Origin: Malassezia japonica | Lineage: Eukaryota > Basidiomycota > Malasseziomycetes > Malasseziales > Malasseziaceae | NCBI RefSeq assembly: GCF_029542785.1 | Contig: NC_083372.1 | Location: 682,001-746,000 of the forward strand | Direction of reading: 5' to 3' | Length of the DNA: 64,000 nt | Shown: positions 5,837-62,645 of the stretch, in pieces | How the letters are laid out: each line of letters opens with the position of its first letter | Numbering within the stretch: position 1 is the first letter of the stretch | The notes under the pieces: model-generated | Told to the model about the DNA's origin: nothing | The model's input: the letters and a program-made list of their open reading frames with translations, nothing else | Database searches by the model: none | Translations under genes and position numbers: made by a program

Positions 5837-6278
5837 CTACTCCTCTTTGGGCAAGAGCGACTGCAGCAGCGCAATCTCCTTGTCCTCCTTCTCGGCCAGA
5901 TCGGGGCGCGGCTCCGGCTTGGCGTTGCGGAAGACCTTGGCGGCGTCGGTGCGCTTCTTGATGCCTTTTTGCAGCATCTTGATCACAGACGGCGCTTTCT
6001 GGTTCGCCTGCGCCTTGGTCTTTTCAGCGTACTGGAGGTCCGTGAGGATACCCTGCGTGAGCATAGAGACGTACACCAAGCACCGTCGCCGTGTTGGCGT
6101 CCTTGGCGAGGCGCGCCTGCTTCCAGCGCTGCTTCAGCGCAGCAAGCGTGGGCGCATCCAGGGGGTTCGGGCCGCTCGGCGCGCGGTTCGAAGACATGCG
6201 CACCATCGCAGGCGCACGCAGAACCGGCGCGCGCAGCGCCGGCGACCGCAGGCTCGGCAGCGCAAATCGGAGCGACAT
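5837..6278 (-). CDS. AIM41: Mitochondrial GatB/YqeY-domain protein, Aim41-like, shortened
   Basis: Two exons (complement 6075-6278 and 5837-6052) joined over a 22-nt intron give 139 residues. The N-terminus is rich in Arg, Ser and Ala with almost no acidic residues, as in a mitochondrial presequence. It is followed by the YqeY-like core LKQRWKQARLAKDANTATVL, GILTDLQYAEKTKA and IKKRTDAAKVFRNAKPEPR. The reading frame stops just after LLQSLLPKEE, where full YqeY proteins continue into a second half, so the domain looks truncated. It is convergent with the F-box gene (20 bp between stops). Aim41 is a poorly understood mitochondrial protein; a role in tRNA-dependent amidation is only suggested by the fold name. 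Confidence 0.8.
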
Positions 6279-6308
6279 CGAGGAAAGACGACACCTCCAC
6301 TGTGGAGA

Positions 6309-8013
6309 CTATGGCGCTCGACGCACGAGCAGCGGGCACGCATCGGTGCGCGTGCGCACGTCGTACGGACGCGAGACGATCCAGCGCTTGGCCACGATCG
6401 GGCGGCTGTCTGACTCAAAGTGAAGGGTGTTGATGAGGATGCTAATAAATGATTTCATTTCGGCGATTGCTGCGTGAGTCGCGAAACGTACCGAATTGTC
6501 GTCCAATGCATGCACGCGGCCCCTGCAGAAACGAGAGGCCGCCGTAGGACGAGTATGTCTGCGCACCAGGCATCGGCTCGGCCCAGCGCTCGGGGCGGAA
6601 AGTGTGTGCATCTTCGCCCCAGAGCGTAGGGTCCTGCGAGATGGCGGCGAGGGGGATCATGATAATGGTATCTTTTTCCACAAGCGTGCAGCGCCCATCC
6701 TGCGCAGGGATCACGTCACGTTCAGCGGCCATGCGAGAAGTGGTGTGGATCGCACCGTGGAGCCGCAGCGACTCGCGGATGCACCAGTCAAGGTACGGCA
6801 GCGCCTCCAGCTCGTCCATCGAGAGGTCGCGATGCTCGTCGCGCGCGCCGCTCTGGCCGTGTACAGCGAGGCCGAGACGCGTGCGCGTCGCGCGGATCTC
6901 AGAGCGCAGCTTTTCCTGTACGTAAGGGTGCCTGGAAAGCATGAGCAGGAGCCATGTCATTTGCGTTGCAGTGGTTTCGTGGCCGGCAAAAATAAAGGTC
7001 GAGAGCTGCGCGACAAGCTCGTCATCTGTGAGCACTGCGCGGTCTAATATGCTCGTTTTCTCGGTTTTAGGGCGCTGGGAATTGGTATTGGCACGCAACA
7101 GAGTCGCCAAGAGGTCGGGGCGCTCTTCTTCATTCGTCGCACGGTACAGGCCCGTGTCCGGTCCGAGGATCGATGCTTTGGCTTCGCGAACAATCTGCTC
7201 CGCAACGCGAAAGAGCACGCGCGAGGCGCTCCGGAACTGGAAGGACGTGAAGCCGATCGGAAAAATCTCTAGCGCAGGAAAGATCATCGTCAACGCGTCG
7301 AACAAGTTTTTGGCGAGCGACGTGCGTGTCGCAATGTCTAGCGCGTGCTCAAACGCGGCCGTGAGGGGGTGCGTGGCGTGTGCACGCCCTTGCTTGTCAT
7401 TGCGCACACTCTCGAGCGTGCCAAACTCGATGTGAAAGGCTGCCGATCCAAGTGCGTCGAGTGCCGTGCACCCCATCAGCTTGTATATGTCGGAAAGGAC
7501 GCCCACATCGCCCGACACATGCAGCAGGTGGTCGCTGAGCGCGTGCGCGTGCCGGTCAAAGATCGGCGCGAGCTTGCGGATCGAGCGGCCCGAGAAACCA
7601 GGCTGGATCGCACGCTTTTGACGCTTATGTGCATCGCCCTCAGCGACAAGCATGCCGTCGCCCATGAGGCCGGCGAGAAGACGCTGCACAACGCGCACCT
7701 TGGGGTAGGAGTAGGCCTTGCGGCGCAGGACGTGGTCGACCGCAACAGGGTCCGTGACAAGCAGCCGCGGCTCACCAAACGTGCCCCAGATACGCACCAC
7801 ACCACCATACTCTGCGCTCCATTCCAAAAACACGGGGACAATGTCGCGGCGCAGCAGGTCGCACAGGTTGCCGTACCAGAACGACGGACACAGCGGTCCA
7901 GGCACCGTACGGAGCCACTTGCTCCAGCGCAACTGGAGCAGGAGACATTTGCATACCACGTAGCTTACAACACCTCCCAACAAGCCTACTATACTATACG
8001 CAAGGACGTCCAT
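6309..8013 (-). CDS. Membrane-anchored cytochrome P450 monooxygenase
   Basis: Two exons (complement 6492-8013 and 6309-6469; 22-nt intron) encode 560 residues. An N-terminal hydrophobic anchor (VLAYSIVGLLGGVVSYVV) and the Pro-rich hinge VPGPLCP target it to the ER. Typical P450 motifs follow: the oxygen-binding I-helix FAGHETTATQ (about 340-350), the K-helix ESLR (about 413), FRPERW (about 474) and the heme loop FLQGPRACIGR with the axial Cys (about 495-505). The second exon supplies the L-helix AIAEMKSFISILI; without splicing the protein would end soon after the heme loop. Microsomal class E type; the substrate cannot be told. It lies tandem with MON2 upstream (38 bp) and has no other biosynthetic genes nearby, which argues against a metabolite cluster. 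Confidence 0.93.
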
Positions 8014-8051
8014 GGCAAGATCCAAACCTACCCTGCCCCCTCTCCTTTGTC

Positions 8052-12842: not shown

Positions 12843-12891
12843 CGCGAATGGAGGCGGAGCGCATGGGCCTTTTGGGATTTACGCTCCCTCC

Positions 12892-14586: not shown

Positions 14587-14591
14587 TTATA

Positions 14592-15500: not shown

Positions 15501-15967
15501 GGTGGACGGGGAGTGGGGAAACACACAGGCCAACTTTATGACTCAGCAAGAAGATGCGGGTGGTTGCGGGGCGTTTTCAGGGCGCTCGGCGCTCGGCGAA
15601 GGATGAGCACGCGGGACGAGGGCGGCCAAGACGGCCTCGTGCACGACCTATGACGCGGCTGTATCTCGAATGGTTCTAATCCAGGCTATGCTGCTACAGG
15701 AATATGCCCTCCGGCGTACACGTACGCGACCCGCCAGGCCACGCGGCCCTTTAGGTAGTAGGAGGCAAGATTCTCGCGTCTTTCCGTAGCCCACACCAGC
15801 CATCGTCCAGCTGTAGGGAAAGTATAGACGCTTGTTCCTGACTCTGAATCCGGACCTTTATCTCTTCAGCTCGTTTTCCTATCCGCTACGGTGGTGGAGC
15901 GCAACCGATCACTCGTAGGAAATCCACCTCCATTCCCCCCGCCACGCGTCGTCCTTCCACCAGTGCG
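15501..15967. promoter_or_regulatory. Divergent promoter region between PRO3 and RPT3
   Basis: This 467-bp gap separates two divergently transcribed start codons and must carry both promoters. I see no supported gene, repeat or classical TATA box in it; there is a short pyrimidine-rich stretch around 15855-15885 just before RPT3. Confidence 0.6.
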
Positions 15968-17235
15968 ATGGAGGAGATTGGTATCCTGCCCGCGGACGCG
16001 CACGCCTCGACGTCGCAAGTGCCGAGTGGCCAGACTGGTGGCCAGCCTGCTGTGCGCTCCGGCCGCGATGCCTACCTATACTTTAAGAAGCTGCAGCAGC
16101 AGCTCGAGTTCCTGAATACGATGGAAGACTATGTGGTGCGTCGCCTTGCCTAACCCAGAAAGATGAGCAGCGCAACCTGAAGCGCGAGCTTGTGCGCGCG
16201 CAAGAGGAAGTCAAGCGTATCCAGTCCGTCCCTCTTGTCATCGGACAGTTCCTGGAGCCGATCGACCAGATGACGGGCATTGTCGGCTCGACGACCGGGT
16301 CAAACTATGTGGTGCGCATCCTTTCTACGATCGACCGTGAGCTGCTGCGTGCCGGCAGCAGTGTTGCGCTGCACCGCCACTCGAACTCGCTCGTGGAAGT
16401 CCTCCCCCCCGAGGCCGACTCGAGCATTGTGATGATGGGCCAGAACGAGCGGCCGACCGAGACCTACCAGGACATTGGTGGTCTGGACGTGCAAAAGCAA
16501 GAGATCCGCGAGGCGGTCGAGCTCCCCCTTGTGCAGTTCGACCTGTACCGCCAGATCGGTATTGACCCCCCCCGTGGCGTGCTGCTCTATGGCCCCCCCG
16601 GTACCGGTAAGACGATGCTGGTCAAGGCGGTGGCGAACGCCACCACCGCCTCCTTCATCCGTGTCGTCGGCTCCGAGTTTGTGCAGAAATACCTCGGTGA
16701 AGGCCCTCGCATGGTGCGCGACGTGTTCCGTCTGGCGCGCGAGAATGCGCCGTCGATCATCTTTATTGACGAGATCGACGCGATTGCCACGAAGCGTTTC
16801 GACGCGCAGACTGGCGCGGACCGTGAAGTGCAGCGTATTCTCCTCGAGCTGCTTACGCAAATGGACGGTTTCGACCAAGGCAGCAACGTCAAGGTGATCA
16901 TGGCGACGAACCGTGCCGACACGCTCGACCCTGCGCTGCTGCGTCCCGGCCGTCTGGACCGCAAGATCGAGTTCCCCCTGCCGAGCCGCCGCGAGAAGCG
17001 TCTCATCTTCCAGACGATCTGCAGCCGGATGAACTTGAGCCCCGACGTGGACTTGGAAGACTACGTGAACCGCCCCGACAAGCTCTCCAGCGCCGAGATC
17101 GCGGCGGTTTGCCAGGCGGCTGGATTGCAGGCGGTGCGCAAGAACCGCTACGTGGTGCTGCCCGCCGACTTTGACGAGGCGTGCAAGCAGCTCGCCAAAA
17201 AGTCGGACGACGGCCGTATGGAGTTCTACCAGTAG
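15968..17235 (+). CDS. RPT3: 26S proteasome regulatory ATPase subunit Rpt3
   Basis: One of the six AAA+ ATPases of the proteasome base, which unfold and translocate ubiquitinated substrates. Exons 15968-16135 and 16159-17235 (23-nt intron) give 414 residues. An N-terminal coiled coil ([17 protein letters not shown]) leads to the OB domain ([20 protein letters not shown]), then Walker A GPPGTGKT, Walker [11 protein letters not shown], the second region of homology [16 protein letters not shown] and the C-terminal FYQ, an HbYX-type tail that docks into the alpha ring. The [20 protein letters not shown] segment and the FYQ tail favour Rpt3 among the six paralogues. The ATG at 15968 gives the expected length. 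Confidence 0.94.
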
Positions 17236-17264
17236 ACCACGCATGGCACGGGCGCCTGCGTGCT

Positions 17265-17272
17265 TATATAAT
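17265..17272 (+). promoter_or_regulatory. Possible TATA element upstream of the SET9-like gene
   Basis: TATATAAT lies about 112 bp before the proposed ATG at 17384 in otherwise GC-rich sequence, just after the RPT3 stop. It could equally belong to the RPT3 3' end. Confidence 0.25.
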
Positions 17273-17383: not shown

Positions 17384-19890
17384 ATGATGGACGAGCTACC
17401 GGCAGACGATGATCTGCTCTCATGCATGCTGCTTGAGTACGTCGCCCCGCTGACCCAGTACGCTCGAGTTTGAGCCAGCGATCATGACCCATAAAATGAA
17501 CCCGATGCAGCGCGCGGCGCGTTTCGACCGCGATGCAATCTCACTGCTCGTACGTCAACATGTAATTTGGGAGCGTGACCTCCCTGCGGCGCTTGCCGCT
17601 TTTCTACGGTACGTCGCACATCTTATGCAGCATTCCCGTGGTGCGCAAGCATGCCCAGTCCAAATCACCCGCACAGATGCGCGTGTTTGAGTCGCATATC
17701 CAGCGCTACCTGCAGGCTTATCTTCCGGATGCGGGGTTCGAGTATGCAGTCACACATCGCTACCACACCGCACGCCTCCGCCGCCTCGAGGCGCTCGGCG
17801 GCATACACGATCGTGCGACCGGCGCAGCGGGTCTCGGCATCGGGCGCACGGATCTGTGTGTGCTGGCCATGCGCTCCTTTCAGCCCGACGATATCATCAC
17901 GCATTGCCGCGCGGCCCTCAAGGACCTCTCGCGCGAAGAGGATGAGACGCTGCGGGAAGAAGCGATCCACGCGCGCTCGGGCGACCTGCGCAACGGACAC
18001 ACACGGCCGCAGCGCGACTTTTCCATCATTCGGTCGTCGAGCAGGAAGCTGAGCCAGCTCTTGCTGGGACCCGCACGCTTCATTAATCACGACTGCCAGC
18101 CGAACGCCGAGTTCCGGCGCTCAGGCCACCAACTGACGATCCGCTGTATCCGCCCGATCCAGCGCAACGAGGAAATTACTACGTTTTACGGCGAAAACTA
18201 CTTTGAGCTGAACAACAAGGAATGCATGTGCGCGACGTGCGAACGCCTGGGACGGGGCTTCTTTTCCGCAGACAAGGAGCAGCCCGAACCGGCACCGACA
18301 GGGCAGGGCGGCGACGAACGCACGCTGCGCTCCTCGAGCTCGAGCGCCGCGCTCCCGGTGGCGCCCCCGCCGGTCGATATGATCAATTACGCGCTGGACC
18401 CCGATGCGACAGGGCCGGAATGCGAGTGCCTGACGTGCAAGACGGCATTCCGCGCGCCCGAGCGCTGGTGGACGCCGGACGAGTGCGTGCGCTGCGAGCG
18501 GCACTACAAACTGTACAAGTGCGACTGGCCCTCGCGGTCCCCGAAAGAGAACCCGGCAGAGTCGCACAGTAATGTACGCCCGCTCAAGCGCAGCGCACCG
18601 CAGAGCCAGCGGCCGCCGAAACGCCAGGCGCTCTCGCTCGACTCGCCTGCCGCGTCGGAAACCTCGTCGCCGGTCAAGCTTAGCCCCATGCGTTCGTTCG
18701 ACAGCGACGAGGAGCGGCCGGCATCGTCCGACACGCGGCATGGCCGCCGCAAGTTTGAGGTGCGCAGCGACGATAGCGACGAGGGCTTTGACGATAACCA
18801 CGTCACACTCGGGCCTAGGATCCTCGGGCACGACGCCAGTACCGACGTCCTCGCGTCGTACTGGGGCGCGCCGAGCGGCCAGCGGCGCGAGCGGCGCCCG
18901 GCCAACCTTGGCCTCGAGTCGCTCTCCGACCGCATCGCTTCGAGGCGCGTCAACGGGCACGAGCACGGCCACAGGCGCAAGGCGTCCGACATGTCGGTCA
19001 AGTCGGAGCGCGCAACACCCAGTTTCGAAAGCAAGAGCAAGAGCCGCACGCCGGCCCCGGCCCCGACCGAGGCTGTGATCAAGACGGAGCGCGCCACGCC
19101 TGTCCTCGAGAAAAAGGGGCCGGCGTCGCTGCCGCCGGATGCAGGCCGTGCGGTGTCGCTGCCGCCCGCGCCGAGCCAGCGCACGTCGAAGCACGCACGC
19201 AGCGCATCCGGCACGTACGGCCGCCCGCCCGAGCCAGCCAAGCGCGAGCAGCCTGCGTCGCCGGCGCGTGAGCGGCCTGCTTCGCGCCGCGAGCGGCCCG
19301 TGTCACCGCCAAAGCCGGCGATTGCGACCAAAGGGCCGGAACGGACCTCTGTCTCGAATCTCGCCCTGTTTTGGTCGGGCGGCGTCGAAGGGCGCACACG
19401 GCGGCGGGCGCGCGAGCAGCACAAACCCGAAGAGCGCCCGCTGCGTGGGCGTCCCTCGAGCGAGAGCCGCGAGAAGCGGGCCAAGGAGGAGGCAGCGAAC
19501 GCTCCCAAGGTCGACAAGGCCAAGGTCGAGAGGCCGCCGCCCGAGCCCGAGCGCCCCGAGCGGCAGGACAGGCCGGAGCACGACCGTCTCGACACCGAAA
19601 AGGCCGAGCGCGCGGTGCCCTCGCCGCCCTCGACCGTCTCGACACCGAACACGATCAAGTCCGAGTCGACCTCGCGTCCTACCTCGCCGCTCCCTTCCGA
19701 CGGCCCGCCACGGCAGCCTGCGCGGCGCAACCTGCGTTGGGGCAGCGGCAAGTCGAGCATCAGCCGTCCCCTGCCCGGCAACTCGGCCAGCACCGGCATT
19801 TCGCTCTTGTCTGCGCTGACAGGCCGTGCCTCGCCGACGACGCATGTGAACGGCACGCCGTCGCGTGCGCCCGACGAGCGCTCGCTGTAG
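17384..19890 (+). CDS. SET9: SET-domain histone lysine methyltransferase, Set9/Suv4-20 type
   Basis: Likely the histone H4 Lys20 methyltransferase of fungi. Exons 17384-17436, 17459-17608 and 17631-19890 (two 22-nt introns) give 820 residues. The N-terminal helices (DDLLSCMLLD, then THKMNPMQRAARFDRDAISLLV) and the block HIQRYLQAYLPDAGFEYAVT match the Set9 N-SET region. The SET core follows with GPARFINHDCQPNAEFR, ITTFYGENYFE and the post-SET CMCATCE. A second Cys-rich motif (CECLTCKTAF ... CVRCERHYKLYKC) sits at about residues 330-370. The last 400 residues are charged, Ser/Pro-rich and probably disordered. The stop is 75 bp from the convergent SPT6 stop. Confidence 0.85.
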
Positions 19891-22900: not shown

Positions 22901-24643
22901 ACGTCGAGCAACGCACAGGTCTTGAAAAGCTGGCGCACGTCGCGGCGCAGCAGCGGCTCCTTCCCGAGCTCGTGCGCGAGGAGCGTGCGGGCGAGGTGCA
23001 GCGCTTGCTCGGCAGACGACACGCCCCGCGACGCGTCGACGTACTCGTCGGCGATCTCGGTCGGGGGCACCGCGGCGTCCTCCGGAATGTGCGTGCGCGC
23101 ACCCGCCACGACGTTGGCGGCGAGCTGCTGCGCGTCGAGGCCGAGGCGGACGGCAAGCATTGCGACCGGTGTCGACTTTAACCGCTCGTACTCCGAGACG
23201 ATGGTGGGCTTCTTGAGCAGCGGCTTGGTGACTTCCGCCTCGGTGATCGCCGTCGCGTCGCGGAAACGCTCGCCAAAGCGCATGGCAAGCCACTCGTTAA
23301 TGTCCGACACTTCCTCAAAGCTCGCGGCATGCGTCAAGAGCTCGTCAAAGTAGGGCCGCACCGGCGCGATGGTCTCTTCGCCGAGCGCCGTGGTGAGCTG
23401 GCCAAAGGTGTGGCGCAGCGTGTCTTTTCGTGCACGCAAGAGCTTGTACTTGATACCGAGCGTGCTGAGCGTGAGGAGCTCCTGGCGCACCAGCAGCGTC
23501 GTCGTATCGTGCTTGCGGGTCGCCTCATTAAACTGCGTATGCTCCAGCTCGTCGAGGCGGTGCTGCGTAAGGAACGACACCTCGAGATAATCGTTCAGCA
23601 TGTAGCCGAGCATGGTGCGCACGCAGCGGTGCCACTCAGCACGCAGTCGGCCGTGTGCGCCGTCTTCCAGAAACTCGGCGGTGCACCGCGGCGAGATGCG
23701 CGGAGCGGCCCAGTTGGCCGCCTCGTCGAGGTCTGCCTCGCTCAGCGGCTGCTCAAGGAGACGCAAGCCCTCCTCGCCCGGAATCGCGAGCTGCAGGCGC
23801 TCTGGCATATCGACCTGCTTGATGCGGTCGTCCTCCTCGGTAAGCATGCGCTCCTGGATCTGTGCGGGCTCAAAGATCTGGGTCAGTCGTGCGACGTACA
23901 TCTTTGTACTCCATCTTGCCCTTCTTGGCCTCTTCTTCCTCTTCTTCTTCGCCGAGTGCCCACGCATAGTCCTCGCCGTTGCCAAAGATATCGTGGATCT
24001 CGTCCCAGGCTTCTGGATCGATGCCGACCTTGAGCGGGTCGACACGCGCGCCCGAGAGGCGTGCGCGACGGCGCTCTTCGCGGCGCTCACGTCGGCGCTC
24101 TTCGCGCGCCTCCTCGTCGAGACCCTGGAGCTCGTCGTCCTCGTCGTCTTCGATAAAGTCGTCGAGCTCGTCGTCGTCGTAGTCGCCGCGTGCCTGATCC
24201 ATCGAGTCGCGGATCGCACCCGCGACCGAAGGAAGCGCCTCGTCCTCCTCGTCGTCAAAGATATGAGCCAGGTCCGCCTCGCGCTCTTGTTCGCCGTCCG
24301 GACGCGCGCGTTTGTGGGGACCAACACCAGGAACCGGTCCCTGGTTTTCCTGGAGGAGCGCGAGATCGTCCTCGTCGAGCTCCTCATCGTCCGCCTCGCG
24401 CCTGCGGTGGCGGCGCTTGCGCTTATGCGACGCGTCGCCGCCCTCTTCGTCCTCGTCGACGATAAAGCCCTCGGCGACGCGGCGCTGCTCCTCCTCGTCC
24501 TCCTCGTCTTCGTCCTCGTCGCTGCTATCCATGCCGACGAGGTTGCCAGAGTCCTTCATGAGACTCTCGCCTTCCTCTTCACTCATAGGCACATCTTCTT
24601 CCGCGTCGCCGGCACGCGACGAAGCCTTCGCCTCCGCCTCCAT
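19966..24643 (-). CDS. SPT6: Transcription elongation factor and histone chaperone Spt6
   Basis: Spt6 travels with RNA polymerase II and reassembles nucleosomes. Exons complement(23900-24643) and complement(19966-23877), joined over a 22-nt intron, give 1551 residues. Exon 1 encodes the acidic N-terminus (EEDEEGGD, DELDEDDLALL), including the short conserved DEIHDIFGNGEDYAWAL motif. After the intron come IFEPAQIQERMLTEEDDRIK, the helix-turn-helix and YqgF-like core, GLGPRKAHALVHAI (HhH), an S1 domain (GLEGTIAGPDIMPGYNS) and the tandem SH2 module starting HPNYHNFNSVQAQNFL (about residue 1275 on). The C-terminus carries TPGHYG/TPAYGG-like repeats. The ATG at 24643 is the only start upstream of the acidic region. 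Confidence 0.95.
19969..20172 (-). repeat. Gly/Tyr/Thr-Pro repeats at the Spt6 C-terminus
   Basis: The last 68 codons contain six Thr-Pro motifs in Gly/Tyr-rich context (ATPGHYG, SRTPGHYG, QTPAYGG, ATPGRFGG, ATPGYG), then a Pro/Gly-only tail ending PERRW. This resembles the Thr-Pro repeat region better known from Spt5. Confidence 0.75.
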
Positions 24644-24688: not shown

Positions 24689-26213
24689 CTACACACGGTG
24701 GACACTGCTATGGAGCTGCGCGGCGAGGGCGGAGCAGCCCTGGTTCAGCTCGCCGACGGCGCGCATTAGGTCGCGCGGGAAGGGGTAGTGTACAGCGACA
24801 GCCTTGATCAGCGTCGAGATATGTATAATGGCCTGGATTAGTAGAGCGACGTACGCGAACAAAGTGATTCGCTTCCTCCCACAGCTGCTGGCACTCGGGC
24901 GAGGGCGGCCGTGCGCGCCACGCGTCGTCGGGCAGGGATGCGAGCGTGGCCTGTAGGCGCCGCGTCTGGTCGAGTGTGCCGGTGCACATCTCGTCGACGT
25001 CGCGCAGGCGCTTGGCGTTGGTCTCTTCCGCGGCCGAGAGCTCGGACGAGTGGGTATGAATGTGCGCGTGCAGGTCGGTCCAGACCTGCACGGCCTGTGC
25101 CGTGACCTGCTCCAAAAGCGATTGGAGTGTGACATCGATCACAGGCACTTCGCGCACGCTCGGCGACGAACGCATCTTGAGCTGAGGAAGACTCGACGAG
25201 GACGACGGCGTGCCGGTCGTGCGGGGGGACGCAAGCGCCTTGCGTGTATGTACAGGAGACGCCGGCGAGCGCATCATCGAGCTCGAGGGTTTCGTGCGTA
25301 GCGTCCGGTGCTTGGGAAGAGGCGTCGAGGTCACCGGCGAAAAGGCCGAGTCGGACGTGGTGTCCATCGTCTCGAACGACGCATCGGATGCGGGGGGGCG
25401 GCTGCGCGAGCGCGTGCGCCACGGCATGTCGCTCTCTTCGGCAGCGTCTTGCGCGAGGTACGGCGCGACCTCTTCGACGTGGGGGGCCATGATCGCAGCG
25501 CTGTTCCGCAGCTCGGCGACACTCCCGTAAAGCATCAGCAGGAGGGTGCGGGAGAAGCGCACGTCGACGCTCTCTTCGAGCTGGGGGAGCTGCGCGTGCA
25601 GCATCGAGACCGCGCGCCGAAACGTGCGCACACTCTCGCTGCACGCGTCGAGCACGCCGCGGATCACTGGCGGCTCGGGCACGCCGAGCTGCGTGGCGGT
25701 GTCGAGGCGGTCGAGTGCGCTGATGAGCATGTTCATCGAGATGCCAGCGAGGCTCAGCACACGCTGGAAATGCGCAACGAGCCGCTCGTCGTTCGACACG
25801 GAAATATGCTGCTTCAGTGCATTGTAGATCTGCGAAAGCGCAAAAAGCACGCCGCGCGCCGCGTCCATGAATTTTAAAATCGGGGGAGGCACCGGCTCCA
25901 CGTTGACCACCGGTGGCATCGCCGAGAGGCGCCTAAAGTAGCGCGTGCGCTGCGCGTCGAGCGGCTCGCTCGCATCGCCGGCAGGGCTGCTGTGCGACTC
26001 GACACGGCGCGCGGCCGCCGCCGCGTCCGCCGCGGCCTGCGTCGCGCCGACTGTCGGTAGGCTCAGCTGCCGCAGTCCGCGCCCTGATTCTGCACTCGAC
26101 GGCGTCTGAACTGGCCGCCGCAGCGGCGGCGGCGACAACAGCGCCTGCGGACCGTCCATCCCGGAGCCATGCTGCGCCGCGCCCCTTTCCTCTTTAGTCA
26201 GCTGCACGGACAT
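24689..26213 (-). CDS. SOG2: Sog2-like RAM signalling protein without leucine-rich repeats
   Basis: Two exons (complement 24855-26213 and 24689-24832; 22-nt intron) give 500 residues. The region from about residue 95, with FMDAARGVLFALSQIYNAL, FQRVLSLAGISMNMLIS and VRTFRRAVSMLHAQLP, resembles the helical RAM-pathway domain at the C-terminus of Sog2, a partner of the Cbk1/Kic1 kinase pathway controlling polarity and separation. Family members usually start with a leucine-rich repeat array; none is present here, only a Pro/Ala-rich leader. The start may be MSVQLTKEERG (26213) or MDGPQALLSPP (26159); the longer open frame begins with TTG. The splice restores ANHFVRAIIHISTLIKA at the end. The symbol is tentative. 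Confidence 0.75.
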
Positions 26214-37644: not shown

Positions 37645-38488
37645 ATGTTTGCGCCCGCCAAGATCATCACCCCCGAGAACATCGGCACTATCGAGCTGTT
37701 CGGCACTGGTCTGGTACGTCTCTCTATGCAAGCCTGCTAATCCTAGTCGACCAATGTGCAGGCTGTCATGATTGCGCTCAAGGAGCTCAACATTAAGTAC
37801 ATCCACAAGGCCTCGATGCCTGAGTCGGCTGAGCTCTACGAGTTCTCGCCGTTCGGCACCATCCCCGTCCTGGTCCACGTACGTCCCTCTACTAACGCAG
37901 CGCCCCAACGCCATCTACTCGGCTCGCGACAGGATTGCGCTGTTCGAGACTCTCGCCATTGCTCGCTACCTTGACGAGATCCTCTCCTCGAAGGACGTGG
38001 AGGACCCCTCGCACCGCACCCTCTTCCCTCCTCCCATCGGCTCTCACGAGCGCAACTACGCTGATGTCGCTCTCTCGCGCGTCGAGATTGACCAGATTAG
38101 CGCCCTGATCGTGACCCGCGTCCAGCCGATCGTCGAGGACCGCTACGTGAAGCCCTTCTTTGCGCTCCGCAACAACGGCGCCAGCAAGGAGGACATCTCC
38201 GCTGCCCTCTTGGACTCGTTCCAGGCTGCTGAGGAGATCTTTGTGCTCCTCGAGCGCGTGATCGCCAACACCCAGGAGCAGCTCAAGCTCTCGAACCCCC
38301 CGTTCATCTTCGGCAACCTCAGTTGGGCTGACGTTTTCCTCTTCCCCGTCGCCCGCGACTTCAAGGCGACCAACCCCGACCTGTTCACCGCCTCGCGCCT
38401 CCCTTGGCTCTCGGGCTGGTTCAGCCGCTTCGAGCAGCGCCCCAGCGCCCAGGCCACTCTCCCCACCAGCTTTGCTGCCTCTAAGTAA
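37645..38488 (+). CDS. Glutathione S-transferase-like protein
   Basis: Exons 37645-37713, 37762-37878 and 37901-38488 (introns 48 and 22 nt) give 257 residues. The N-terminal thioredoxin-like domain has the pattern ELFGTGLAVMIALKELNIKY, ending at FSPFGTIPVLVH, in the position of the GSH-binding P-V/V loop. After it comes RPNAIYSARDRIALFETLAI, where the conserved Ser/Glu-Ser region of GSTs lies (family ESxAI, here ETLAI). The C-terminal helical domain includes FIFGNLSWADVFLFPVARDF, the N-capping motif of GSTs. Codon use looks more biased (many CTC, GAG, AAG) than in most neighbours, suggesting high expression. Substrate unknown. It is divergent from PLP2. Confidence 0.88.
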
Positions 38489-41180: not shown

Positions 41181-41195
41181 TCAATTACGTACATT

Positions 41196-44254: not shown

Positions 44255-46399
44255 CTACGGTGCGTCGGACTCCTCCGAGTCGTCCGTGTCGTCATGGCCG
44301 TACACCACAATCGCCTGCGGACACTGACTGTCGGAAGAATGCGTAGGGGCCATTGCCACATCGGGGGAGGGCTGCGCCTTGGTGTCCCCCGATTTTAGGG
44401 CATCCTGTAGACGGAAATCGACCGCCGCCAAATGGCGCCGGCTAAGCGGACTCGGGGCGTGAGGGGGTCCCGCGGAACCAAAACGGTCAGGCGTAAAAGC
44501 ATCCGGAGGCAGCGATGCGGGGGTTTCTGCGACTTTGCTGGTCGACGATGACATGCTCGTCATGGGCTGCACCGCCGACATGAACTCGCGCTGGATCGCG
44601 GAGTTGGACGTCGGCGTGGCGCCGGACGCCAGCGACTGATCCCACGTATTCACGCGCGATCCCGTCGTCGAGTGGTCGTCAATATCAAAATCCTCCGGCA
44701 CGTCGTTCTCGCTGTCGCTGCTGGAGGAGGGCGACGGGGACCGCCGGTCGTCTTCCTCGGCGACCGGTATGCGGTCGACGCTCTGCCGCGGCGCCGACGC
44801 CTTGTTCTCGGCACCGCGCGCTGCGGGCACGTTCTCCTCGACCATCACGAAACTCTTTTGCTTTTGACGCTGGTTCCAGTTGAGCGTGCGCGAAACCGAG
44901 TCGAACCACGGACTCGGCTGGTCCTCGGGCATGACCGTGGGGAAGGGGTAGGGCGACGCAGTGACCTTGATGTGGTCGCCGCGCTGGATCTCGATGCGCC
45001 CCCGGCCGTCGAACGACGCCCATGCGTTGCTCCGGGAGTGGTAGGGCACAGAAATACGCAGCTCCATGCTGTCCGGCAGCAGCATCGGCCGGAAGGATAG
45101 CGTGTGGGGACAGATGGGGGTGATCAGAATCGCAGGGATTTCGGGGTGGACCAACGAGCCGCCCGCAGAAAGGGAATAGGCGGTGGACCCGGTGGGTGTA
45201 GAGATACACAGACCGTCGGCCTGCGAGGTCGTGAGGTGGTTGTTGTCCGCAAACACCTCGAGCATGCTCACAAACGGACTCGGCCCACGGTCCACGACGA
45301 GGTCGTTGAGAATCTCAAACGTCTCGACCGGGCGCGTGCCAAAGCAGTGGACCACTTTGTCCTTGTGCGGCCGCGTGTTGGACGTGTCGGCCGGCCCCTC
45401 GCGCGCGGTCGGCGCGACTTCAATTGCGTGCCAGCCGTCCTCTTCAATGTTGCGCATAATAATCTCGCCCGTGTCGCGCGACTTGATCGCCTTGCGGCGG
45501 TACCGGCTCGCACCGGGGTCGCTCGGGGGGATGGCACGCTGGGTCAGTTGGGCAACGTACATAAACCGTAGCGCGGAAGCGCATACGCATATTCAGCCGC
45601 ACGCCATTCTGCACGGCGGATCCCAGCGAGGTCTTGTACTCGTCAAAGTTGAACGGCGTCAAAAAGCCCAGCGACCCGAGCGAGAAGGGGATCACGGGCG
45701 GGACGTTGGTCTGAAAGAGCCACGAACAAAAGAGAACCGTGCCGTCGCCGCCGAGCTGCATAAGTCGCACAACGTACCGTCACCACAAAGTCGAACAGGT
45801 GCGGCGCAGAGCAGCACAGGTCTGCGGTCCAGTACCGCAGCTGCCCTTCGCCGGCCATATTGCGCCCCTCGGGCATGCGCCGCTGCGGCCTAATCGGCTC
45901 AAAGATCTCGGGGTGCTCGGCCTGCATGCGTGCGACGTCGAAGCGCTTCGAGTGCCGCAGCTGCGCGTCGACATACACAATCAATCCCCGGTCGTTGTTT
46001 TCACGCGGTATCGTCATGAGCCAGATCGCCATCTCGCGCGTCAGGCTCACCAAATGGTTGTCGCGCGCTTTGGTAATGATCAATACGCTCTCGACATTCG
46101 AATGGACACGCGCACGCACTGTGTCAGAAAAACGACGTACCGAGTTGCTTGCTCATCTCGCGCACACCCACCGCCGTCTGGGCAAGCTGGTTGGTAATGC
46201 TCCGCAGGCGCCCGTCGGACGCCGCCGCTTCCTCGTCGAGCTGCTGCTCGGCGCTCGAAGCGGCGCTCTCGCCATCCTGCTGCGTGATCTCAGGCTTGCT
46301 CAAGTGGAACGACTGCCGGCTGCGTTCGTACACGCCATTCAGCGAAGGAGGCTGCTGCGGAGTGTACTCCGCATCCTCGTCCGGCTGGGCCGCCGACAT
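44255..46399 (-). CDS. NAD kinase with long disordered C-terminal extension
   Basis: NAD kinase phosphorylates NAD(H) to NADP(H). Four exons, complement(46141-46399, 45778-46118, 45561-45755, 44255-45538), with three 22-nt introns, give 692 residues. The joined sequence shows RARVHSNVESVLIITKARDN, then T-LGGDGTVLFCSWLFQ (the GGDG motif is formed across an intron, about residues 202-205), IPFSLGSLGFLTPF, and QADGLCISTPTGSTAYSLSAGG, the second catalytic signature. The final 200 residues are Ser/Asp-rich and low complexity. The first ATG is 46399; the open frame extends to a TTG upstream. It is divergent from HRD1 by 85 bp. Equivalent to the yeast Utr1/Yef1/Pos5 family. Confidence 0.93.
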
Positions 46400-54181: not shown

Positions 54182-54213
54182 GTAATGTATGTTATAGCTG
54201 CACCTTCTACGAA

Positions 54214-54952
54214 TCAGATCGGCACGACACGCTCGAGCCACTGGCCCAGGTCGCGGATCTCCTCTGGGCAGGCCGAGTGCATCATGCCCTTGTACTCGTG
54301 AAACTCGGCAAGCTTGCCGAAGCCGAGCTGGGTGCGCAGGCCCTCGTGCGTCGCCTTGCCGAACTCATAGTTGACGATCTGGTCCGCGGTGCCGTGTGCC
54401 TGGAATACCGGGAACAGCTCCTGGCTGGTGCGCATCGCCTCGATCTTGGCACGGAGGGGCATCCACGTCGAAAGCGCCACGACGCCCGCGATCGGCGACG
54501 GCGACGTAAGTCCCGCAAGCAGCGCGATCGCGCCGCCCTGCGAGAAGCCGCCGACGACGATGCGGTTGCTCGGCACGCCGTGGCCGTTGAGGCCCGGCGC
54601 GCTGCCGTCGATCTCCTGCTTGACGAGGTCGCGGATGAGGCTTGTGCTGCGCATGAGGCCTGCCTCGTCCTCGTCCTTTTCAATGTCGGTGAGCGTATAA
54701 ACTGTATTAGGATAAGGACCTACTGTCGAACCACGACGTCATCTTCATGCCCATGTTGAGCGTCACCGGCTGCAGCGGGGCGGTCGGGAGGACGAAGCGC
54801 ACATGCTGCAGCGCCTGCTGCTGGCCAAGCATGCGCGCGACGTCTACCCATCCCTGCGCCGTGTCACCGAGTCCATGGATCAGGAAAACCGTAGCACTAG
54901 GGAAGCCGCCGGCAGTCGGCGGCACAACGAGCGTCTTCAGGGCGGCGGCCAT
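54214..54952 (-). CDS. Acyl-protein thioesterase (APT1-like serine hydrolase)
   Basis: This enzyme removes palmitate from proteins, counteracting DHHC transferases. Exons complement(54724-54952) and complement(54214-54701), 22-nt intron, give 238 residues. FLIHGLGDTAQGW is the oxyanion region, VRFVLPTAPLQPVTLN follows, the splice restores WFDIYTLTDIEKDEDEAGL, and VGGFSQGGAIALL carries the nucleophile Ser (about 120). HGTADQIVNYE holds the catalytic Asp and GMMHSACPEEI the catalytic His. The open frame begins with GTG; the first ATG is at 54952. It is convergent with the Zn2Cys6 gene and lies 4 kb from a DHHC palmitoyltransferase, its functional opposite. Confidence 0.93.
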
Positions 54953-55014
54953 GAGGTAACAATACACACCTGCATTGGCCCCGCATGCACGGCCCGATCC
55001 TACCCACCGCCACC

Positions 55015-58000
55015 ATGGTCATTTCGAAGCGCGCGGGTGCGAAGAAAGCGGGCCGTGCGGGTGCGCCGGCGGCCCCCCCGTCGAACCGCGGGATCGTCAA
55101 GGCGGACTGGCGCGAAGGCTTCAAGAAGCCGCAGGCCGGCGTGTCGGACATGACACTCCTGACGCAGATCAGCAACGAGGCGATCAGCGACAACCTCCGC
55201 AAGCGTTTTGAGAATGCCGAGATCTACGTACGTGTCTCTCACTTACGCAGACGTACATTGGAAACGTGCTGATTTCCGTCAATCCTTTCCGTGACCTGGG
55301 CATCTACACGGACGAGATTCTCGCGTCGTACCGCGGCAAGAACCGTCTGGAGATGGCGCCCCACGTGTACGCCATTGCCGAAGGCGCGTACTACAACATG
55401 CTTGCGTACAAAGAGAACCAGTGCGTGATCATTTCCGGCGAGTCGGGTGCCGGAAAAACCGAGGCCGCGAAGCGTATCATGCAGTACATTGCCGCCGTCA
55501 GTGGAAACGATGGGCAGTCGGGCATCCAGGGAATCAAGGACATGGTCCTCGCGACGAATCCGCTGCTCGAGAGTTTCGGCTGTGCCAAGACGCTGCGCAA
55601 CAACAACTCGTCGCGCCACGGCAAGTACCTCGAAATCATGTTTGATGCGCACGGCACGCCGATCGGCGCCAACATTACCAACTATCTCTTGGAAAAAGGG
55701 CGCGTCGTGGGGCAGATCCGCAACGAGCGCAACTTTCACATCTTTTACCAGTTCACCAAGGCTGCTACACCGCAGCAGCGCGAAATGTTTGGCCTGCAAG
55801 GCCCGGAAGCCTATGCGTACACGGCCAACAGCCAGTGCCTCGACGTGCCTGGTATTGACGACCACGCAGACTATGCTGCGGCGCGCGATGCGATGAACAT
55901 TATTGGCCTGAGCGAGGCGGAACAGACGAGCATCTTCCGCATGCTCGCCTCCATCCTGTGGCTCGGCAACGTGACCTTTGCCGAGAACCAGCAGGGCGAC
56001 GCCGAGATCGCCAACGCCGACGTCCCCTCGTTTGTCGCGTACCTGCTCGAGGTCGATGCGGGCGCCGTGACGCGGGCGCTGACGCAGCGCATCATGGAGA
56101 CGCAGCGCGGCGGCCGCCGTGGCTCGGTGTACGAAGTGCCGCTGAACCCCACACAAGCCGCGTCGGTGCGTGACGCGCTGAGCAAGGCGATCTACAACAA
56201 CCTCTTTGAGTGGATCGTGACACGAATCAATACCTCGCTCAACGCGCGCACCCAGGCGGCGAACGTGATTGGTGTGCTGGACATTTATGGCTTCGAGATC
56301 TTTGACAATAACTCGTTCGAGCAACTGTGCATCAACTATGTCAACGAGAAGCTCCAGCAGATCTTCATTGAGCTCACGCTGAAGAAGGAGCAGGAGGAGT
56401 ACGCCCAGGAGCAGATCCAGTGGACACCGATCAAGTACTTTAACAACAAGGTCGTCTGCGATTTGATCGAGGAGCGCCGGCCGCCGGGCATCTTTTCCGC
56501 GCTGAACGACGCGATGGCGACGGCGCATGCGGACCCCGCTGCGGCGGACAACTCGTTCGTGCAGCGTACCTCGATGCTCGCGTCGAACCCGCACTTTGAG
56601 GCGCGCGGCAACAAGTTCCTTGTGCGCCACTATGCCGGCGACGTGATGTACAACGTGAGCGGCATGACGGACAAGAACAAGGATGCGCTCCTCAAGGATA
56701 TCCTGAACCTGGTCGACTCGTCCGGCAACCAGTTCCTCAAAGGCCTCTTCCCGGACCGTCCGGACCCAGACAGCAAGAAGCGCCCACCGAGTGCGGGAGA
56801 CCGCATCAAGGCGAGCGCGAACCTGCTCGTGGAGAATTTGATGCGCGCACAGCCGTCGTACATCCGCACGATCAAGCCGAACCAGAACAAGAGCCCGAGC
56901 GAGTACGACGGACAGGCGATCCTGCACCAGATCAAGTACCTCGGTTTGCAGGAGAATGTGCGTGTGCGTCGCGCCGGCTTTGCGTACCGCAACACGTTTG
57001 AAAAGATCGTGCAGCGCTTCTACCTGCTCTCTCCCGCGACGTCGTACGCAGGCGAGTACACCTGGCAAGGCGACGCACGCAGCGGCTGCGAGCGCATCTT
57101 TATCGACACCGGCATCGCCCGCGACGAGTGGCAGCTGGGTGCGACCAAGGGCTTTATCAAGAATCCCGAGACGCTCTTTGCGCTCGAGACGATGCGCGAC
57201 CGATACTGGCATAACATGGCGATGCGCATCCAGCGCGCGTTCCGTGCGTACATGCGCTACAAGCACGAGTGTGCGCGCCGCATCCAGCGCGCGTGGCGCC
57301 GCAGCCGCGAGGGCAACGACTTCTTGGTCATGCGCGACTATGGCCACCAGGTGCTGGCGGGGCGCAAGGAGCGCCGCCGCTTTAGTCTGATTAGCATGCG
57401 CCGGTTCCTCGGCGATTACCTGGACCTGAACGGGTCCTCCGCCGAGGGGCGCATGCTGCGGGCCGCGGCCAACATTCCGGCACAGGAGCCGGTCGTGTTT
57501 AGCGCACGCGCGCAGCTCCTCGTCTCGAAACTCGGCCGCTCGTCGCGCCCGAGCCCCCGCTTCCTAGTAATGACGGAGCGCACGGTGTACATCCTCGTCA
57601 CGCAGCTCGTGAACAAGGTGCCGCAGACCATGTGCGAACGCCGCATCGCCCTCTCGTCGATCCGCTCGGCAGGTCTGTCGGGCCTGCGCGACGACTGGGT
57701 CATCCTCAACACCGGCGACGAGGAGGGCGATCCACTGCTCCACCTCGACTTTAAGACGGAGTTTGTCTCGCGGATCCTGCAGCAGACGCGGGGGAGCACA
57801 CATGTAAATATCGCCAACCAACTCGAGTACGTGCGCAAGGGACGCAAGAAGGCACACGTTACCTTTAAGAAGGACGAGAGCGTCCAGCGGGGCGACGTTT
57901 ACAAGAGCTCGACCGTCTCGGTCGGCTCGGGCGAGCCGCCCAACAGTGTGTCGCGGCCACCGGCGAGGAAGAAGCCGGGCGTCGTGCGCCCGGTGACGAC

Positions 58001-59009: not shown

Positions 59010-59045
59010 CGCCATAGGGCCGTGCACTCCTTAGTCAGCAACACG

Positions 59046-60534
59046 ATGGAAGCCTCGCCGGCCGCGCGTCCAGAGGCGAGTGGGTATGTGTCCGAGAGTG
59101 AGGACGAGCACGAGGAGGTTGCGCCGCTCGAAGGCATTGAGCTTGATTATACCCCCACGCACCCTCCCCCACGCTCGCTTCTGAGCCCGAAAGAGATTCT
59201 ATGGTACGTAGTGAGGCTCATGCAGGGTGACGGGTGTCGTGTTGGTCATGGTCTTTTTGCATCTCTCGCCGCAGTTCTTTATAATGCTGCCCTACTACCG
59301 CACGACGCGCTCGTTTTCGTTTGAGCAGCTGGTGCGCGTGCTTGGGATATTCAACGTGCTTGTGGCCTACATGTACATCACCTACTACCAGGCGGTGACG
59401 AGCGACGCGGGCGGCGTGCCGCCCCGCTGGACGCCCGACGAGGCAATGGCAGAGTACGGCGTCGAGCTCTCGTCCGAGCACCGCCGATTCTGCTACAAGT
59501 GCAACGCGTTCAAACCGCCTCGAGCGCACCACTGCAAGCAGTGCAAGCGGTGCGTGCTGCGGATGGACCATCACTGCCCGTGGATCGGAAACTGCGTCGG
59601 AAACGGAAACCACGCGCACTTTATGCGCTTTATTACGGCGCTGACCATTGCAGGGACGTACCTGCTCGCGATGCTGTGCCTGCGCGTCGTCGACTGGTGG
59701 AATACCGACTGGTACTTTGCGCGCCCGTCGACGTCCGAGGTCGTGATGCTCGTGCTGAACTACCTCGTGGGCATTCCGCCGATCCTGCTCACGAGCATCA
59801 TGATGTGGTACCAGATCTACCTGCTTGCGATCAACAACACTACCATCGAGACGCACGAGCTGGATCGTGTCATGCGGCAGATCCGCCGGGGACAGATCCC
59901 GTTTACCGAGTTCCCTTTCGACGTGGGCGTCTGGCGCAATTATACCGAGATCTTTGGCTCGAATATCCTCCTGTGGCCCTGGCCGTTTTCCAAGCCGGTG
60001 CACGACGGGCTCCTGTACCCTGTCTCGGCAGACGAACGTACGTTGCAATGCTCTCACCCAGCCGAAGTGCAGTTCCTGTGGCCGCCGCCGGATCCCCGCG
60101 CGCGCCAGCGCCGCCGGCACGACCTGCCCGACTCGGCGTTTACCTATGGCGATGAACAGCTGAACCCCGCGTTGCAGCCGTCCAACGCCGCGGAGCTCGC
60201 GCGGCACGCACAGCATTCGCTCAACGGCTCGCCCGGTGCCGAGGACGAGGACGAGGAGTTTGACTTTTCGCCACGCGTGCGCGTGCGCCGCGGCAGCGAG
60301 GGCCTCGAGGTGCGCCCACCGCAGTACAGCCGCATGTTTCTCGCAGATCCCGCGCAGGAATCGTCGAGTGGCGATGCGCCGTACGGCAGCTATCTCGAGT
60401 ACGGCGCCGAGGCGCCCACGGCCCCGGAAAAGTCCTCGCCCAAGATCGTCGACGTGAGCTTTGACGAAGACGAAATTCCTCTCGGCCACCTCGTCCGGCG
60501 GCACACGCACGATACCGGCGATCCTATCTCGTAG
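59046..60534 (+). CDS. PFA4: DHHC-type protein S-palmitoyltransferase, Pfa4-like
   Basis: An integral membrane enzyme that attaches palmitate to protein cysteines. Exons 59046-59203 and 59226-60534 (22-nt intron) give 488 residues. Membrane spans VVLVMVFLHLSPQFFIM and VLGIFNVLVAYMYITYY precede a DAGGVPPRW motif. The cysteine-rich domain RFCYKCNAFKPPRAHHCKQC, CVLRMDHHCPWIGNCVG with the catalytic DHHC at about 167 follows, then two more spans. The C-terminal 170 residues are acidic and low complexity. The assignment to Pfa4 rests on the order of motifs and the short N-terminus; other DHHC members are possible. Stop 3 bp from the PEX19 stop. Confidence 0.9.
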
Positions 60535-60537
60535 CGA

Positions 60538-61516
60538 CTACATAATGCTGCAGTTGTCGTCGCCACCCTCGCCGCCTAGCATACCATTGAGCCCGGCGAG
60601 CTCAGGGGGCATTTCGCCCAGCAGCTCCTGCGGGGGCGAGCCGAGCTCTTGCATCTCGGCCACTAGGTCGCCCACCTGCTTCTTCTTGGCGGCGTCCTTA
60701 TCGCTGTAGTCCTTGGCCTCAAACAGGCCGATAATCTCGCCCATGATCGCCTCTTGCTTCTTATACCGGCTCTTTTCCTCCTCACTCAGCTTCTTGCCCG
60801 CCTCCGAGTTGAAGTAGGCAGGGAAGCGCGAGTGCATATCCTTCAGGGGCTCGTACAGCACCTCCTTGTTCATCAGCTCCTCCATCATAGAGCTCAGCAT
60901 CTGCGTCAGCTCGGGCATCTCGCCGCCGCCACCCGCGCCACCGAGCGCCTCGAGCATCTGTGCAAGGTCCGCGTTGCCGTTGAGACCGAGGCCGGCAAAC
61001 GGATTGCCGTCGCTCGACGACGCGTTGCTCGCATCGGCGCTCGACTGCCGGAGCTTCTCCATTGTCGCCTGGACCACGTCCTGGAAACTCGCATCGGATG
61101 CTGGCGCATTCGGGGCTTCCTTTTTGGTCTCTGGCTCCTTGTCGCCCGCGCCTTGCCCGGCAAGCATGCGCTCAAACTGCTTCATCATCTCGTCCTCGGC
61201 CACCGCCTGGCTGCCTTGGCCGGACTCGGCACCGGTAGGGGGGGGCTGGGTGCCCGCCTGCCCACCGAGCTGCGCCATGAACGACTCCATGTTCTTGGTC
61301 AACTCCTTGACAAATTCATCAGAGAGGGGGTCCTCCGCGTCGCCCTCGCCCGACTCGGCCTTCGGCTCGGCCTCGGTCGTGCTCGGCGCGGCACTCTCGG
61401 ACGGAGGGGCAGCGGAAGCAGGCTTCTGCTGGAAGTCGTCGAGGACATCTGAATGAGCTAGAGCACCTACCGTCCAGGTCGTCCAAATCTTCCGCCGTTG
61501 GCTTCGGTGGGGACAT
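60538..61516 (-). CDS. PEX19: Peroxin 19, peroxisomal membrane protein import receptor
   Basis: Pex19 binds peroxisomal membrane proteins in the cytosol and delivers them to Pex3. Exons complement(61471-61516) and complement(60538-61448), 22-nt intron, give 318 residues. The splice joins AEDLDDLD to DVLDDFQQK, the acidic Pex3-binding N-terminus. FVKELTKNMESFMAQLG and FQDVVQATMEKL follow, then MMEELMNKEVLYEPLKDM and FPAYFNSEAGKKLSEEEKSR of the helical cargo-binding domain. The protein ends DDNCSIM, a CaaX box with Met, which predicts farnesylation as in other Pex19 proteins. It is divergent from the SET-domain gene by 70 bp. Confidence 0.95.
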
Positions 61517-61586
61517 TGCGGTGGAGAGGGAGCCGCCGGCTTCTTCTCCAATCCACGTGGCCCCGCGTTCCCCACCTCCACCTAGG

Positions 61587-62645
61587 ATGGAAGACGCGCT
61601 GGACGCATACGTGCAAGGCGCGTCGCGCGCGCCGTGCAAGGTCGCCGTGTCGGACCGTGTGCCAGGTAGGTGGCCTTTCTGATGAAGCGGGTCGCGGGCT
61701 GGTGCTCACGGCGGACGTCGAGCCGGGGGAGCTCGTGCTCGAAGTGCCGCCGAGCGTGCTGCTGAACTGCTCGTCGATGCACAAGCGCCATGCGCTTGGC
61801 AATGCGCCGCGGAAGAATGCATTTGAGAAGCGGGGGGCCGGCGGGCCTCTGTCATCACACCAGGTTATTTCGTGTGCGCTTGCGCAGTGGCGCGCAGGCG
61901 GGCGGCCGGATACCGTGCTCGCGCCTTTTCTCGTATCGCTGCCGGACGCATTTCCCACCGCCCCGCTGACGTGGGCCGTCGAGGGCGGCATGGAAAACAC
62001 AGATATTTTAAAATCACTGTCGCATACTGCACGCAGCCGCGCAGACCAAGTAAAGAGCCGCTTTGATCGCGACTGGCACCACATCGCCGAGGTAGGTGCG
62101 CCCAGCTGACGCAGATCACGTCCCAGGCCATGTACCAGGACATTTGGGCGTCGATGGGCATGTGTGGCACAGCACCGACAATATCCCAGCACGACTTTTT
62201 ATGGGGCTGGATGTGCACCAACTCGCGCTGTGTCTACATGGACTTGGGGTATGCACAGCACCCGGACAACTTTACGCTTGCGCCGCTACTTGATATGGCG
62301 AATCACACGGCCGTGCCGTGGCTTGAATGCAAGGTGCGCTACGATGTGCGTGGTGGCCTCGAGCTCCTTGCACCGAGCCAGCCCCGGCCAGAGCGCGCTG
62401 GGCGGCAGGGCTGGCGCAAGGGCGACGAGGTCTGCATTACGTACGGCGCGCACGCGAACACGACGCTCCTTGCCGAGTACGGGTTCGTGCTCCCCGCGGA
62501 TCTGCATCCCGACGATGCGTACTATACCGGGAATCGGTACAATGACGTCCTGCTCGACGAGGCCATCATCACTCTGCTGGATACCCAAGGCGATGTGGGG
62601 CAGTGGAAGCGTGAACTGCTCGAGAGCGAGGGTTACTGGGCGTAG
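61587..62645 (+). CDS. SET-domain protein lysine methyltransferase, SETD4/RKM type
   Basis: Exons 61587-61665, 61688-62091 and 62115-62645 (introns 22 and 23 nt) give 337 residues. The first splice restores RVPAGRGLVLTADVEPGEL, the GRGL SET start motif. Then come LSSHQVISCALAQWRAGGR, WGWMCTNSRCVYM, the SAM-binding and catalytic LLDMANHTAVPWLEC, and DEVCITYGAHANTTLLAEYG. The order fits the Rubisco-LSMT/SETD3-4/RKM branch that methylates non-histone proteins. A substrate-binding C-terminal domain is short here. The ATG at 61587 is the first that connects to the restored exon 1. Confidence 0.85.

Follow-up and report, generated by a model that had tools for sequence, protein, structure and literature searches.

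Introns in the window

The DNA analysed here (the window) is a stretch of 64,000 nucleotides (nt) from the yeast Malassezia japonica (C3:682001-746000 of a genome of 8,433,779 bases in nine contigs), and our subject is a class of 22-nt introns that interrupts its genes. Gene models for the window contain 37 introns, 19 of them exactly 22 nt and 4 of 23 nt; several of the 14 introns of other lengths (those of 18, 26, 56, 66, 74 and 194 nt) are doubtful model calls. A first-pass annotation of this DNA had counted 18 introns at 22 nt and 4 at 23 nt among 37, close to our count, and the five examples it located (6053..6074, 23878..23899, 35306..35327, 45756..45777 and 61449..61470) proved to be 22-nt GT..AG introns, all on the minus strand, that carry the template GTASGT-N7-YTNAY-NN-AG. 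The 22- and 23-nt introns are the following.

6053..6074, minus strand: 22-nt intron of the YqeY-like protein gene 5837-6278; exact template, joined gene model; Pfam YqeY (residues 47-137) covers junction residue 69
6470..6491, minus: 22-nt intron of gene 6309-8013; exact template, gene model
16136..16158, plus: 23-nt intron of the RPT3 (proteasome ATPase) gene 15968-17235; gene model; alignment with human RPT3 ungapped at junction residue 57
17437..17458, plus: 22-nt intron of gene 17384-19890; exact template, gene model
17609..17630, plus: 22-nt intron of gene 17384-19890; exact template, gene model
23878..23899, minus: 22-nt intron of gene 19966-24643; exact template, gene model
24833..24854, minus: 22-nt intron of gene 24689-26159; exact template, gene model
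35306..35327, minus: 22-nt intron of the CTLH/RING protein gene 35087-36386; exact template, gene model; Pfam CTLH (153-324) and RING (370-409) flank junction residue 354
36699..36720, minus: 22-nt intron of the phosducin-like gene 36538-37389; exact template, gene model; junction residue 207 just beyond the Phosducin match (49-199)
36939..36961, minus: 23-nt intron of the phosducin-like gene 36538-37389; gene model; Pfam Phosducin (49-199) covers junction residue 134
37879..37900, plus: 22-nt intron of the glutathione S-transferase (GST)-like gene 37768-38488; exact template; Pfam GST_N_2 (2-63) covers junction residue 38
39539..39560, minus: 22-nt intron of gene 38589-40681; exact template, gene model
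40431..40452, minus: 22-nt intron of gene 38589-40681; exact template, gene model
45539..45560, minus: 22-nt intron 3 of the NAD kinase gene 44255-46399; junction residue 266 ungapped in two Malassezia NAD kinase alignments
45756..45777, minus: 22-nt intron 2 of the NAD kinase gene; junction residue 201 ungapped in the same two alignments
46119..46140, minus: 22-nt intron 1 of the NAD kinase gene; junction residue 87 ungapped in the same two alignments
54702..54723, minus: 22-nt intron of the acyl-protein thioesterase gene 54214-54952; alignment with human acyl-protein thioesterase 2 continuous at junction residue 77, nearest gap ~6 residues downstream
55228..55250, plus: 23-nt intron of gene 54985-59009 (putatively named MYO5 in the first-pass annotation); gene model
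59204..59225, plus: 22-nt intron of gene 59046-60534; exact template, gene model
61449..61470, minus: 22-nt intron of the Pex19 gene 60538-61516; exact template, gene model; Pex19 match (58-318) downstream of junction residue 16
61666..61687, plus: 22-nt intron 1 of the SET-domain gene 61587-63063; exact template, gene model
62092..62114, plus: 23-nt intron 2 of the SET-domain gene; gene model; SET match (28-272, slightly below cut-off) covers junction residue 162
62642..62663, plus: 22-nt intron 3 of the SET-domain gene; exact template; Rubis-subs-bind match (324-455) covers junction residue 337

Removal of the introns restores a conserved reading frame, as seen in the nine joined proteins that were compared. 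Seven of them have Pfam matches (phosducin, GST, NAD kinase, Pex19, SET (slightly below cut-off) with Rubis-subs-bind, CTLH/RING and YqeY). The NAD kinase model joins four exons over three 22-nt introns and scores 674-876 bits against five Malassezia homologues; identity is 63% to M. yamatoensis and 61% to Malassezia sp. CBS 17886, and no gap falls at any of the three junctions. The CBS 17886 protein (P0008) has an 11-residue insertion relative to M. japonica that resembles a 33-nt intron retained by annotation, which may be a sign of short introns overlooked in public Malassezia gene models.

A 22-nt cassette across the genome

Introns were called with our own two-strand gene model, whose coding score is computed from codons after training on long open frames, in a 264-kb sample (the window plus C1:1-200000); all splicing claims made here rest on DNA and protein comparison. 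The unsupervised model demanded of an intron only a GT start and an AG end, and its length prior was flat between 10 and 150 nt. This model returned 148 introns with a mode at 22 nt (35 introns), followed by 23 nt (17), and GTACGT was the most frequent donor (48 of the 148). Seven decoy signal pairs run through the same model gave 128-142 pseudo-introns, with 2-5 at 23 nt and merely 2-6 at 22 nt, and the 22-nt peak is therefore real. At the next stage, in which donor preferences and nothing else were learned (the donor-only model), 168 introns were called, 66 of 22 nt; the final model, which additionally scored the 3' block, yielded 169 introns across 189 gene models (models of at least 150 nt were counted), with 90 introns at 22 nt and 21 at 23 nt.

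In the window the exact template has 19 occurrences (0.02 expected from shuffles), and in the 264 kb it has 76; all 19 and 74 of the 76, respectively, are modelled as introns on the coding strand of the gene. Genome-wide (8.43 Mb) there are 2605 matches (1327 + 1278), as against 7 for the reversed pattern, and scaling this exact count by 90/76 suggests a total of ~3,000 introns of 22 nt. The first-pass annotation's description of the template as invariant is overstated: 74 of the 90 22-nt introns in the 264 kb fit it exactly. The donors of the 16 others are GTGCGT (6), GTATGT (4) and rarer forms.

The cassette consists of a donor GTACGT or GTAGGT at positions 1-6, a 7-nt linker, a CTNAY motif with its A at +17, 2 nt, and AG at 21-22. 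In the donor-only model, 65 of the 66 22-nt introns have the presumed branch A at +17 with 2 nt between motif and AG, which bears out the position given for it in the first-pass annotation. With GT..AG ends, a U2-type donor and a YTNAY branch motif, these are U2-type spliceosomal introns. The 22-nt introns carry 24.5 bits of information (small-sample corrected, n=90; the figure includes GT and AG, which are fixed by model construction), about double the 12.4 bits needed to specify ~3,000 sites in the genome, as expected if the intron is recognised without help from the exons; flanking exons hold little signal except a G at -1 (34 of 66). The first-pass annotation had proposed minimal introns recognised by pure intron definition: the introns are indeed minimal and U2-type, and their information content fits intron definition, but the word 'pure' is something that we infer.

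Within the 66 introns of 22 nt, the linker is not random, with A at position 8 in 2, G at position 9 in 2 and a purine at position 13 in 55; a pyrimidine at position 9 might base-pair with the U6 sequence directly preceding ACAGAGA. Position 16, immediately before the branch A, is A in 23, C in 18 and G in 20, and CTCAC is frequent.

Two spacings with a lower edge

We tabulated the position of the branch A relative to the donor against the gap between branch motif and AG, together with control counts. The commonest combination was (17, 2), with 79 hits versus 2 in the control, followed by (18, 2) with 12 versus 2 and (17, 3) with 9 versus 0. All cells with the branch A before +17 add up to 11 versus 9 in the control, and motif-to-AG gaps of 0 or 1 nt show no excess over chance. 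Both spacings are thus sharply bounded from below, and the most frequent intron lies at the two limits. The motif-to-AG distance is short and fixed, with its corner at 2 nt (of the 168 introns of the donor-only model, 92 have a distance of 2 nt and 20 one of 3 nt).

Lengthening takes place on either side of the branch motif, which makes 22 nt the meeting point of two minima. Among the 20 introns of 23 nt in the donor-only list, 11 have a longer spacer, 8 have 3 nt between motif and AG, and 1 lacks a recognisable branch motif. The proposal that 23-nt introns only add a base to the N7 spacer and keep the 3' block therefore describes the four in the window but fails beyond it. The supposed near-fixed length of 22 nt is the mode, but it forms the lower edge of a distribution with a longer tail and not a single fixed length; the template marks a floor and is not fully invariant.

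Below the floor, templates of 15-21 nt occur genome-wide at chance level (31 versus 31 in the control). Three of these 31 are intron-like 21-nt strings with GTAGGT, CTAAC and CAG (C1:532423-532443, C1:1494591-1494611 and C2:1291149-1291169). The METTL16 gene (L030, C8) has a candidate 21-nt intron with 1 nt between motif and AG, and its protein is plausible with the candidate either retained or removed.

Donor position +4 and the spliceosome

In modelled introns of 20-60 nt, donor position +4 is occupied 107 times by C, 26 times by G, 16 times by T and twice by A. GTAAGT combined with the 22-nt 3' block was not found in the 264 kb, and a few GTAAGT introns seemingly exist elsewhere in the genome. 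Basidiomycete donors are often relaxed at +4, and the C may partly be a trait of lineage or base composition. The genome encodes parts of the major spliceosome, namely U6 with ACAGAGA, U1-70K, U2AF65, SNRNP27K and METTL16. By eye, the frames of SNRNP27K, U1-70K and METTL16 are continuous once candidate 22- or 23-nt cassettes are removed; such candidates lie in the splicing-factor genes SNRNP27K (L033, C3:170621-170704) and U1-70K (L082, C2:254625-254942).

According to PMC10581693, switching between A and U at +4 in Saccharomycotina tracks METTL16 and SNRNP27K, and the U1 ACUUACC and the U6 ACAGA box are invariant. In M. japonica, compensation by U6 is excluded by its intact ACAGAGA. Nor can the non-A +4 be ascribed to an absence of METTL16 or SNRNP27K, as both are encoded and SNRNP27K retains the methionine before NRKGGFNRPL (which we take to be human M141). 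Given that METTL16, SNRNP27K with its methionine and U6 ACAGAGA are all present, the METTL16/SNRNP27K model leaves the +4 preference unexplained.

U1 RNA usually starts with ATACTTACCTG, which has zero occurrences in the assembly, and the Rfam U1 model found nothing in the genome at E<=10. ATACNTACCTG occurs at 17 places, none with T; all 17 were inspected without a U1 match. By pattern, 5 hold an antisense intron; by eye, the remainder are coding, unassigned or donors on the antisense strand. All 15 ACTTACCTG places were inspected as well, and not one is recognisable as U1 (best score 13.9 bits with our own U1 model); 6 are antisense introns by pattern and most others lie in open frames, with L060, L064, L066 and L072 belonging to neither group and L060 and L064 the hardest to assign. 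TACCTG plus the loop motif occurs once, in coding sequence. TACC plus the loop motif occurs at 12 places, and the 7 inspected (6 in open frames, L077 outside) include no U1 match; a U1 5'-end model found no match over the 264 kb. Since U1-70K is present (its RNA-binding domain looks well conserved by eye), U1 RNA itself is probably present but missed.

Polypyrimidine tract and U2AF65

U2AF65 reportedly contacts eight or nine pyrimidines (PMC8363638); the 2 nt between branch motif and AG are too short for a polypyrimidine tract or for these contacts. U2AF was among the homologues that the first-pass annotation had pointed to, and we found U2AF65 encoded, similar to the human protein over RRM1 and RRM2, with the RRM1 RNP2 aromatic residue replaced. 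All 56 homologues found were aligned with human RRM1-RRM2. The RNP2 aromatic, which we take to be human U2AF65 tyrosine 152, is lost in all five Malassezia identified by organism (D, L, V, R or Q stands in its place) and is present as Y or F in all 19 other fungi so identified. Across all rows it is found in 4 of the 17 top homologues (the 5 identified Malassezia and 12 further ones) versus 37 of the 38 remaining homologues with RRM1 coverage; RRM1 is missing from one further row. Of the 17, 2 retain the second RNP1 phenylalanine, as do 28 of the 38. We read this RRM1 change as a relaxation of the RNA-reading face that may have followed the disappearance of the tract.

Interpretation

We consider it very probable, from sequence, that U2-type spliceosomal introns have here been pared down to roughly the minimum that the M. 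japonica spliceosome accepts, with a floor on both spacings; thousands of its introns sit at 22 nt, apparently about the shortest that its spliceosome can remove. The donor-to-branch edge would represent the shortest linker that lets U6 and U2 engage donor and branch site, and the branch-to-AG edge the closest approach of the AG to the branch that permits exon ligation. With no space for a tract, the 3' end would be recognised through branch motif and AG, and U2AF65 may persist chiefly to bridge proteins, its RNA-reading face having decayed. The genome is compact, and pressure towards deletion would hold introns at the floor, and strong internal signals would permit splicing by intron definition.

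Several points weigh against this reading. Splicing at these sites is deduced from DNA and protein conservation. The decoy totals (128-142, against 148 for GT..AG) make much of the non-22 tail of the unsupervised list unreliable. The edge at 22 nt may be leaky, with rare introns one base below the floor, in view of the three 21-nt strings and the METTL16 candidate. Mutational deletion bias alone could give the mode, although a lower edge this sharp would hardly follow from it. The erosion of RRM1 is correlative: four top homologues (all among the 12 further ones) keep the RNP2 aromatic, which one of the 38 others has lost, and 10 of the 38 are without the second RNP1 phenylalanine, some ascomycetes included (6 of the 19 identified fungi).

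A bolder version, which we hold only tentatively, is that the Malassezia spliceosome has been re-tooled: it would measure a 17 + 5 nt cassette and ignore the polypyrimidine tract, its U2AF65 RRM1 would have lost the RNA-stacking face but kept its protein contacts, and the 5' site would have been reset to GUACGU, possibly matched by a change in the putative U1 5' arm.

It is unlikely that 22 nt was selected through retention (transcripts left unspliced become open to decay when the intron length is no multiple of three) instead of spliceosome geometry. Both 22 and 23 nt shift the frame, and only 11 of 60 modelled introns of 23-60 nt are multiples of three (a figure from a method that is poor at detecting such introns); however, lengths of 19 and 20 nt, which shift the frame too, stand at chance level, and separate minima of the two spacings would have no explanation.

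We give somewhat less credence still to recent copying, in which introner-like elements would owe their common length to descent from one insertion rather than to a physical floor. A single dominant length and a strong consensus would suit such elements, and spacers do show slight similarity: 26 pairs are alike at 6 of 7 positions (shuffle mean 18.4, reached by 14 of 300 shuffles) and 150 at 5 of 7 (against 124; 9 of 300 shuffles reach this). Yet the 90 introns contain 2 pairs of identical spacers where 1.2 are expected (102 of 300 shuffles reach this), spacer positions 7-13 hold only 0.08-0.45 bits each, and introns of 23, 24 and 25 nt show a gradual fall-off to either side of the branch motif, with lengths stopping one-sidedly at 22.

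A coding or regulatory repeat that breaks frames, or a sequencing artefact, deserves almost no weight: in principle a binding site might take the form of such a 22-mer with constant blocks at its ends, but 74 of the 76 exact matches in the 264 kb are called as introns on the coding strand of gene models, their removal yields conserved proteins, and like candidate cassettes interrupt U1-70K and SNRNP27K. U12-type introns have a long donor, RTATCCTT, and the branch motif TCCTTAAC; donors GTACGT/GTAGGT and the branch CTNAY rule them out.

Comparison with known systems

Ultra-short introns are known from Paramecium (mode 25 nt), Stentor (15 nt) and nucleomorphs (18-20 nt) (PMC6679479, PMC5014332), which agrees with the earlier placement of the M. 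japonica introns near the lowest eukaryotic limits. Ciliates and nucleomorphs share with M. japonica a narrow length mode near the lower limit, but M. japonica is a GC-rich yeast whose intron lengths break off sharply at 22 nt. In Paramecium tetraurelia and the Bigelowiella nucleomorph, donors are largely GT(A) and there is no branch signature (PMC2483917), whereas donor, branch and acceptor are all strong in M. japonica; its 24.5 bits per intron and strong branch motif rule out the degenerate ultra-short type.

Yarrowia lipolytica, Trichomonas and Giardia resemble M. japonica in lacking a polypyrimidine tract and in anchoring the branch point close to the AG, at 2 nt in Yarrowia or at 4 nt (PMC2483917). 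These three are intron-poor (Yarrowia has 719 introns, apparently with a median of 204 and a mean of 269 nt, from a table in PMC2483917), whereas M. japonica has thousands of introns and a donor-to-branch minimum as well; with 2605 exact template matches, it does not belong to the intron-poor type with fixed branch-to-AG distance. Human short introns that depend on SPF45 likewise have a tract too short for U2AF65, but that system involves a 56-nt model intron and a replacement protein (PMC8363638).

Within the genus, very short introns have been noted in a review (PMC7426719); M. restricta introns have an average/median of 37.2/30.0 nt with an annotation minimum of 15-20 (PMC9241646, PMC6473144), and M. 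globosa introns average 76-79 nt (PMC4634964). Short introns are thus common ground, but the available portions of these papers (PMC7426719, PMC9241646, PMC6473144, PMC4634964) do not mention a 22-nt mode, a spacing floor or the U2AF65 change. A search by titles and abstract openings found no prior description of a 22-nt intron mode in Malassezia; most subscription papers lay outside this search, and absence from print is not established. To the known shortness of Malassezia introns, our analysis would add the sharp floor at 22 nt, the coincidence of two spacing minima, the preference at +4 and the altered U2AF65.

Annotation tools with an intron minimum above 22 nt would mis-build many genes. 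The +4 preference falls outside the METTL16/SNRNP27K model (PMC10581693), and loss of the pyrimidine tract would be linked to a specific decay of U2AF65. In human complex A, the U1 and U2 particles cover ~79-125 nt of RNA, and assembly on very short introns is called unknown (PMC11913375). Thousands of 22-nt substrates of the same design in one yeast, together with a sharp edge, would make the minimum donor-to-branch and branch-to-AG spacings measurable, so that M. japonica offers a natural test of how small the splicing unit can get. Elsewhere, very short introns go with degenerate signals and strong signals with very few introns (PMC2483917); M. japonica contradicts this contrast and joins both kinds, its introns being at once very short, very regular and very many.

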